The notes below the pieces were generated by a model. That model ran no database searches. It had not been told where the DNA came from and was given only the letters and a program-made list of their open reading frames with translations. 20,877 nucleotides of DNA from a virus, in IMG/VR virus record IMGVR_UViG_3300009431_000417, positions 1-20,877 of that record, one strand, 5' to 3'. A program made the position numbers and the translations under genes. This document shows, piece by piece, positions 3,341 to 9,134 of this stretch (the stretch's first letter is position 1; each line of letters begins with the position of its first letter).

Positions 3341-3516
3341 GTCCAATAAGAAGAGCCATAGATACAAAGATGGATAATTATATTACAGAGCATAAGGCAC
3401 GGCTTGTAGAATTTAAGGCTATGCGTGATAAGGGTGAACTTGATTTTGCTAATGAAGAACTTGAGAAAGAAGTCAAAATACGACTTGATATACTTGAGGA
3501 GCTGAAAGGAACGTAA
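3337..3516 (+). CDS. Small helical coiled-coil-like protein, unknown function
   Basis: The 59-residue product begins MSPIRRAIDTKMDNYITEHK and is almost entirely charged helix with a heptad-like pattern (FANEELEKEVKIRLDILEEL). It overlaps the previous gene by ATGA and the next by TAATG, so it sits inside a coupled structural-gene run. It may be an assembly or scaffold-type accessory for the neighbouring structural proteins; that is inference from position only. Confidence 0.7.
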   Translation: MSPIRRAIDTKMDNYITEHKARLVEFKAMRDKGELDFANEELEKEVKIRLDILEELKGT

Positions 3517-7336: not shown

Positions 7337-7848
7337 GACAGAGGCAATGCGGTTAGAGATACCTTTTAGACCATCTACAAACCCTATCGCACATTCGTTG
7401 GAATTTGCGACTGTGGTGGCACGCTCTACCATACTTATGGTAGGCGAGTATGTGAGCAATTTCGTGGCAGATAAGTCCCAAGGAGATGTCCTTGTAGGGG
7501 AACACTATCCTTGTATTCCAGCCACCAAATGCTCTACCACGATTGATGTTGTCAAACGAGTATGTAGTAGAGGTTATCTTGAAGTGTCTCAATATTTTCT
7601 TAATATACTTCGTGGCTTCTTTAGGTGTGGGGTAGACCTTGTTGTAAAAGTTGGTATGCCTATCAGCTTCGTCCATATAGTGTCTTGCTCGAAACCCTCG
7701 GTCAAACCACTCTCTTTCAACATCTCGCATATGAAGATGCCCATCTTTCTTCATATACTCTCTATTACCACGCCTAATCCAAACGCCTTGTGGTGCGTCA
7801 GAAAGGTTGATATACATTTACTACCTCGCTTTCTGCACCGCCTCTGTC
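7337..7848. repeat. Inverted repeat flanking the minus-strand protease gene
   Basis: GACAGAGGC at 7337-7345 is matched by its exact inverse GCCTCTGTC at 7840-7848. Similarity extends to about 16 positions: GACAGAGGC, two variable bases, TGC, one variable base, G. The pair brackets the whole protease gene, one arm just past its stop and one just before its ribosome site. It could be a trace of gene insertion or inversion, or chance. Confidence 0.4.
7353..7817 (-). CDS. SprT-like zinc metalloprotease
   Basis: The 154-residue minus-strand protein has the zinc motif HEIAH (118-122) in the context LGLICHEIAHILAYHKYG, followed by CHHSRKF (133-139), where a His supplies the third zinc ligand. The HExxH, short helix, H-x(2-3)-F order is that of SprT/SPRTN-type metalloproteases, which cut DNA-bound proteins in cellular homologues. 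The N-terminal about 60 residues are basic and aromatic. The start has GAGGT 6 bases upstream on the minus strand. A longer open frame on the plus strand (7335-8081) has no recognisable motif and is an overlap artefact. It is one of only two minus-strand units in the window, which suggests its own transcription. The target is unknown. Confidence 0.75.
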   Translation of the reverse strand: MYINLSDAPQGVWIRRGNREYMKKDGHLHMRDVEREWFDRGFRARHYMDEADRHTNFYNKVYPTPKEATKYIKKILRHFKITSTTYSFDNINRGRAFGGWNTRIVFPYKDISLGLICHEIAHILAYHKYGRACHHSRKFQRMCDRVCRWSKRYL

Positions 7849-7873
7849 AAAGAACTATTTTACTTCTATTACA

Positions 7874-7882
7874 AGTATATCA
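7874..7882 (-). promoter_or_regulatory. Extended -10 promoter for the SprT-like gene
   Basis: Reading the minus strand, TGATATACT combines an extended TG with a TATACT -10 box, about 50 bases before the protease start. No good -35 box is seen. The next bases, TTGTAATAG, nearly match those after the -10 of the other minus-strand operon: 7866-7879 and 15040-15053 agree at 13 of 14 positions. Confidence 0.5.
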
Positions 7883-7961
7883 TATTTGTCGTCGGAGAAT
7901 TCAGTTTAACAGCCCATATTTGATATTTTCTTTGTTAGGAATATCAAATTTATCGTCGGAG
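7877..7961 (-). repeat. 21-bp direct repeat pair, probable operator
   Basis: Positions 7877-7897 and 7941-7961 are the same 21-bp sequence at 19 of 21 positions, 64 bp apart, sharing the core TCGTCGGAG. On the minus strand each reads CTCCGACGA followed by AT-rich DNA and TGATAT. The copy nearest the gene overlaps the promoter -10. Between them, TTTGATATT (7919-7927) and AATATCAAA (7940-7948) form a 9-bp inverted repeat. The arrangement suits a repressor or activator site, or tandem promoters of which the distal copy has decayed. Confidence 0.55.
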
Positions 7962-8097
7962 GTTCAAAAATTTAGATATTTATTTTTTAGAGACCCTGAA
8001 AAAGGGTGTTTTAAGGAGATAGCTCGTCGTGGACTTTATCTCGTTTTTGTCAAGTGTCCCGACGGTGTAAACAAAAGTTAGTTTTAAGAAAGGTGTA

Positions 8098-8830: not shown

Positions 8831-8858
8831 TTGCATTTTTAGAATTATGTGATATACT
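8831..8858 (+). promoter_or_regulatory. Sigma-70-type promoter, extended -10, for the pseudoknot RNA
   Basis: TTGCAT (8831-8836) resembles a -35 box, and TATACT (8853-8858) is a good -10 box with a 16-base spacer. TG two bases before the -10 box gives an extended -10. Transcription would begin near 8865, just ahead of the structured segment at 8879-8975. This is the clearest plus-strand promoter in the window. Confidence 0.65.
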
Positions 8859-8878
8859 TTGAGGTATGAAGACAAAGA

Positions 8879-8975
8879 CCTGCGAGCTAATAGGAAAAAA
8901 ACATATGACTCTGGTTGAGAGATATACTTCAGGAGTGCAGTATATCTCTTTTTGCTCGCAGGCGACCAGAGTCAT
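8879..8975 (+). ncRNA. Large H-type pseudoknot RNA, unassigned family
   Basis: Three perfect pairings interlock. Stem A is CCTGCGAGC (8879-8887) with GCTCGCAGG (8954-8962), 9 bp. Stem B is ATGACTCTGGT (8905-8915) with ACCAGAGTCAT (8965-8975), 11 bp plus a G-U. Stem C is AGAGATATACT (8918-8928) with AGTATATCTCT (8939-8949), 11 bp, with loop TCAGGAGTGC and five T after it. The order A-B-C-C'-A'-B' makes A and B a pseudoknot enclosing hairpin C. The element lies right after a strong promoter and ends 10 bases before the GGAGGG site of the next gene. It could be a leader that controls that gene or a free small RNA. No ToxN-like gene or tandem repeat accompanies it. Confidence 0.75.
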
Positions 8976-8993
8976 TTCTTTTATGGAGGGCGT

Positions 8994-9134
8994 ATGATAG
9001 AAAAGCGTAAGTGGACTAAAGAGGAGTTTCGGCAAGGCTACCGAAATGACCAAGCAACATCGGCTTTCATAATGCTTGTATGTTTTGTGGGTTGTGGGAT
9101 TTTAATTCTATTAGCTATATTGACTGGAGGCTGA
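8994..9134 (+). CDS. Small single-pass membrane protein
   Basis: The 46-residue product begins MIEKRKWTKEEFRQGYRNDQ, a charged N-terminus, and then has one membrane segment, AFIMLVCFVGCGILILLAIL. GGAGGG lies 3 bases before the ATG. It is the first gene after the pseudoknot RNA and its promoter, so that element may govern its translation. Function unknown. Confidence 0.65.
   Translation: MIEKRKWTKEEFRQGYRNDQATSAFIMLVCFVGCGILILLAILTGG

Follow-up and report, generated by a model that had tools for sequence, protein, structure and literature searches.

Results

Gene content of the window and features of the segment

The window, by which we mean the whole stretch of DNA analysed here, is a virus record of 20,877 bases with a G+C content of 38%. 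Small genes are densely packed in it, mostly on the plus strand, and many of them overlap as ATGA. The gene content includes terminase subunits, a TSCPD protein, an exonuclease, a PDDEXK nuclease and a radical-SAM/B12 protein. An 827-aa protein encoded at 101-2584 has no Pfam or PHROG match, and its C-terminal third is a Cys/Tyr-rich short repeat. The nearest terminase relatives lie on two short contigs (94% and 82% protein identity), both of which stop short of the RNA region; about 30 further terminase relatives (40-61% identity) come from sequences that have almost no other genes in common with the window.

The segment studied here precedes a gene for a small protein, and its features are the following.

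8831-8836, plus strand: TTGCAT, -35-like, 16 nt before the -10
8850-8858, plus strand: extended -10, TGATATACT
8866-8997, plus strand: 43-codon ORF, MKTKTCELIGKKHMTLVERYTSGVQYISFCSQATRVISFMEGV (rival reading of the segment), overlapping the start of the next gene as ATGA
8879-8887, plus strand: 5' arm of stem A, CCTGCGAGC, closing an 84-nt domain by 9 bp with 8954-8962
8905-8915, plus strand: 5' arm of stem B, ATGACTCTGGT, the proposed antisense segment, 11 bp with 8965-8975
8918-8949, plus strand: hairpin C, 11 bp (8918-8928/8939-8949)
8949-8953, plus strand: run of five T after hairpin C
8954-8962, plus strand: 3' arm of stem A, GCTCGCAGG, pairing with 8879-8887
8965-8975, plus strand: 3' arm of stem B (B'), ACCAGAGTCAT, the proposed target
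8985-8990, plus strand: Shine-Dalgarno sequence GGAGGG of the downstream gene
8994-9134, plus strand: proposed regulated gene, encoding a 46-aa protein with one membrane span predicted by eye

A candidate promoter and repeated 9-mers

An initial annotation of this DNA placed a promoter with an extended -10 directly ahead of the segment. The -10 part of this claim is supported by the repetition of TGATATACT, which has four exact copies in the window where 0.37 are expected, but the -35 matches at three of six positions and the pair at 8831-8858 is absent from the promoter scanner's list, having stayed below its threshold. We regard a promoter at this place as plausible and even likely. The copies of TGATATACT lie at 3486, 3556 (minus strand), 7882 (minus strand) and 8850. 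Two of them face each other around the gene start at 3516, and one lies about 57 nt upstream of a divergent SprT-like gene, the only well-supported gene on the minus strand. The divergent intergenic region between this gene and the TSCPD gene (7818-8097) also has imperfect direct repeats around GTCGTCGGAG / ATCGTCGGAG, which are possibly regulator sites. The repeated 9-mer TGATATACT may serve the phage as a -10 or form half of an operator. The promoter 9-mer GATATACTT recurs at 8921-8929 in the 5' arm of stem C, inside the transcribed element, so that this part of C may act as an operator half-site or in sigma-dependent pausing.

A structured RNA that lies directly behind a promoter and contains a -10-like repeat recalls the put elements of phage HK022; in putL, a -10-like pause sequence is believed to help the RNA fold (PMC9378689). 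By analogy with the put stem-loops, which bind the beta' zinc-binding domain of RNA polymerase, the nascent RNA could bind the polymerase just past the promoter and suppress termination in the long small-gene cluster downstream. Sigma-dependent pausing would help, at the place where stem C repeats a -10-like sequence. We give this reading very little credit. The put RNAs are about 70 nt long and form two stem-loops instead of crossing stems (PMC9378689), and the present element has no sequence match to them. Moreover, the repeat GATATACT could instead be an operator half-site.

Three perfect interlocking stems

All three perfect stems described in the initial annotation (9, 11 and 11 bp, in the order A-B-C-C'-A'-B' within the 97 nt from 8879 to 8975) are present, with no G-U pair in any of them. 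Weaker complementarity of the 5' arm of B runs back to 8898, and the pairing with B' can be extended to 8982 (16 of 18 positions), 2 nt short of the Shine-Dalgarno sequence. The claim that such pairing cannot be due to chance holds for a single segment of this kind, where it is far beyond what Markov sequences produce. We took the segment as the source of 300,000 first-order Markov 120-mers. Stems of 9 bp or longer were present in 2.7% of these and stems of 11 bp or longer in 0.18%, and 0.016% contained two disjoint stems of 9 bp or longer; by extrapolation, the probability of the 9/11/11 triple would be on the order of 1e-8 for one segment. When the whole window was replaced by Markov copies, 2 of 200 contained a crossing pair with a sum of at least 20 bp. 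Long crossing stems are commoner in real phage DNA than in Markov models, and the 1.01 Mb of phage DNA that we scanned, comprising all fetched loci, has three non-repeat crossing pairs of at least 20 bp, this locus included. The window came third in the non-repeat ranking, after contigs L015 and L008. The pair in L015 (9067-9163, near the contig end) consists of two perfect stems, 18 and 15 bp long, that cross each other, and is the strongest non-repeat pair in the 1 Mb; it has no match in Rfam and is possibly another self-antisense element.

The pairing is equally perfect on either strand, and the strand was therefore assigned from the promoter, the T-run and the direction of the gene. This symmetry, together with the lack of G-U pairs, would suit an element that acts as DNA (an operator, or a site of recombination or replication), and also inverted repeats that arose through mutation; in neither case would the RNA play a part. 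The repeat GATATACT points the same way, with six copies in the window where 1.0 is expected, an inverted pair within stem C among them. Yet stems A and B have no further copy elsewhere in the window, no switch of G+C skew occurs at the segment, and the crossing order is unusual for DNA sites. We consider an explanation purely at the DNA level improbable.

Predicted folding of the segment

The nested nearest-neighbour fold of the segment has a z-score of -3.4. When successively longer prefixes are folded, C is there once the prefix reaches about 8948, and A once it reaches about 8960. At the level of primary pairing, the segment has the crossing stems and embedded hairpin of an H-type three-stemmed pseudoknot, and thermodynamic modelling permits A, B and C to form simultaneously. 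The suggestion of the initial annotation that the RNA switches between a terminator-like and a knotted form is not supported, because the three stems have no bases in common and are thus not alternatives. Besides, C would be a weak terminator, since it has only three G-C pairs and is followed by about five U before a G.

These folds bear on the possibility that the segment is a cis-acting three-stemmed pseudoknot leader, in which C, A and B would fold in turn, with no antisense action in trans, and the compact knot would set translation, stability or transcription downstream, perhaps through a protein or a ligand. The order of formation in the prefix folds and the compatibility of the stems agree with it. 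However, if the knot is left out, nested B+C (-36.9) is favoured over forced A+C (-33.7), and no conserved loop core could be shown. Perfect stems of 9 and 11 pairs are also longer than is usual for such pseudoknots. The topology has precedents among riboswitches as well as frameshift elements (PMC11262651), and in phage T4 a 5' pseudoknot serves as a translational operator (PMC535899). The order A-B-C-C'-A'-B' is that of the fluoride and preQ1-II riboswitches (PMC11262651), but the perfect stems are much longer here, with neither a ligand core nor a family match. The T4 gene 32 operator is likewise a structured element of a phage mRNA placed 5' of the Shine-Dalgarno sequence (PMC535899), but there a pseudoknot of about 28 nt precedes the gene of a single-strand-binding protein, whereas a small membrane-protein gene lies downstream here. 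The tisB mRNA also encodes a small protein, a toxin, behind a structured leader with a proposed 5' pseudoknot (PMC7708055); it needs a standby site about 100 nt from a sequestered ribosome site, whereas the pairing described here lies just upstream of the Shine-Dalgarno sequence. Overall, we find a leader that acts only in cis unlikely.

Two further candidates with a related topology were rejected. A programmed frameshift stimulator would require a slippery heptamer immediately upstream and a productive -1 frame, and the A AAA AAA at 8895-8901 lies inside the loop, with the -1 frame stopping a few codons on, at 8916. An HDV-like ribozyme has a similar topology, but A' and B' are 2 nt apart, which leaves no room for the catalytic strand, and Rfam gave no match.

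An overlapping open reading frame

The 43-codon ORF spans the stem segment and was absent from the initial annotation. Its presence counts against the C4-like interpretation developed below. The segment might be a gene for a small protein that is translationally coupled to the next gene, with incidental or secondary inverted repeats. The frame is open from the ATG at 8866, and its stop/start overlap (ATGA) resembles that of several neighbours. Its codon score falls at the 24th percentile of real genic windows, inside their range, and only 4% of stop-free wrong-frame windows attain it; the likelihood ratio of about 3.5 speaks weakly for coding. Against this, the sole Shine-Dalgarno-like sequence is a GAGG 1 nt from the ATG, whereas the neighbours have GGAGG at a usable distance, and no protein relative of the product was found. 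Coding would also leave three perfect interlocking stems unexplained. We judge it rather unlikely that the segment is primarily a protein gene.

Searches for homologues

In agreement with the initial annotation, which recognised no known family, Rfam gave no match. We found no RNA homologue by blastn against phages, nor by exact patterns (two run in viral contigs, one in genome contigs), nor near close relatives of the TSCPD, exonuclease and 9136 proteins; relatives of the 46-aa protein were not found either. The relatives of the PDDEXK nuclease and of the terminase were searched by blastn, with a stem descriptor, by a whole-record RNA search and with two covariance models, and gave no RNA homologue. 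The covariance search of related phages that had been proposed along with the initial annotation was thus run over the terminase relatives, with the same outcome. The covariance models were each built from a single sequence, which limits how far they can reach, and the neighbouring genes are missing from most of the relatives. The absence of the RNA there says little for these reasons; without homologues, covariation neither supports nor refutes the stems.

Some matches were discarded. A 17-nt match in two relatives is antisense to the terminase coding sequence, and the other three-stem matches, in marine contigs, are palindromic repeat arrays and not homologues. Such arrays occur in the contigs of distant terminase relatives, in AT-rich intergenic DNA several hundred bases upstream of terL and around one strong hairpin (L054:4154-4290, L055, L057:2343-2517, L058:2259-2414, L062:1406-1524, L063, L066, L069 and L071:9094-9238). 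Their repeats, for example TAGTACTA, CTAGGGTATA and TATATATAGAG, vary in sequence from contig to contig, and the layout is constant.

Comparison with C4 antisense RNA

C4, an antisense RNA of phages P1 and P7 (Rfam RF01695), binds in P1 to a nearby downstream part of its own message and blocks translation; control of this type has been described in P1-like phages and in prophages of proteobacteria. In C4, loops a' and b' bind the target mRNA, where b' occludes the ribosome site, and RNase P processes the RNA at the GGW that starts the closing stem (PMC5320573). The antisense strands of C4 are inside the domain and the target is just after it, so the closing stem crosses the antisense-target pairs. 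In P1, C4 has 77 nt, the target a2 follows after 3 nt, b2 (753-760 of the locus) is beside the Shine-Dalgarno sequence and icd starts at 771.

One of the loci that ranked above the window, in contig L008, turned out to be a C4 antisense RNA according to Rfam. It scores 69.1 bits where the cut-off is 45, and a small ORF and a Phage_pRha gene follow it. This contig had entered the sample through an unrelated pattern and the scan, which served here as a control, was not aimed at C4. The same phage contig combines the C4 upstream of Phage_pRha with a type II hammerhead ribozyme and an isrK sRNA (L008:3532-3594 and L008:6309-6503).

The segment resembles C4, a resemblance noticed after the fact, in several respects. 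A closed domain (84 nt here, 77-87 nt in C4) comes after a promoter and is followed by a target, a Shine-Dalgarno sequence and a small ORF. The target begins 2 nt after the domain, compared with 3 nt in P1 and, in L008, 4 nt if one counts from where the Rfam match ends or 10 nt if one counts from the closing stem. It is complementary to an internal single strand, and the closing stem crosses the antisense-target pair. In the predicted fold of the isolated domain, the antisense strand is mostly unpaired, with a mean unpaired probability of 0.66 for B and 0.78 for the corresponding segment of L008. The predicted duplex between this loop and its target has an energy of -21.0 kcal/mol.

There are also differences. 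Stem A encloses one strong hairpin, whereas the closing stem of C4 (called P1, like the phage) encloses two, P2 and P3. There is one perfect 11-nt antisense segment, weakly extended to 18 nt, where C4 has a' and b' to pair with a2 and b2. The closing stem lacks a GG start, as stem A begins with CCTGCG. The antisense pairing might occlude the ribosome site, though only through its weaker extension, as B' itself ends 9 nt before the Shine-Dalgarno sequence. The covariance model RF01695 found no match in the window at E up to 10, and the downstream proteins scanned have no icd/ant (antirepressor-like) domains. We thus do not place the element in RF01695, since it lacks the covariance match, a second hairpin and antisense segment, the GG mark and icd/ant, but by analogy it may work like C4.

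Discussion

Our results lead us to favour, tentatively, the interpretation of the segment as a C4-like self-antisense leader, outside RF01695, that represses the gene of the 46-aa membrane protein. What the analysis shows of it is the stems, their geometry, a likely promoter and, in the predicted fold, an exposed segment B. Transcription would begin near 8865, from the extended -10 at 8850-8858. Stem A would then close the 84-nt domain (8879-8962), to which hairpin C would add stiffness, and between A and C the 11 nt of segment B would stay largely single-stranded. Its exact complement B' would follow in the same transcript, 2 nt past the domain and ahead of the Shine-Dalgarno sequence of the 46-aa gene. 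B could pair with B' in cis, which would make the pseudoknot; were the domain processed and released, it could also do so in trans, with the B' of other transcripts. Pairing out to 8982 would abut the Shine-Dalgarno sequence and hinder ribosome loading, and the downstream gene would stay off until the RNA is absent or out-competed. We infer the transcription, the pairing in vivo, the repression, the processing and any release of the domain.

The stronger proposition, that this is a C4-type leader that evolved independently, with a sequence unrelated to C4 and controlling a small membrane protein instead of an antirepressor, is more doubtful. If true, a domain followed by its own target would be a recurrent device of phage control, recognisable by the signature of its crossing stems. 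Should an unrelated phage share this layout without sequence similarity, family models would miss such RNAs. The geometric signature (a closed domain, its own complement, a Shine-Dalgarno sequence) could then serve to find them, as suggested by our scan, which recovered a real C4 unprompted.
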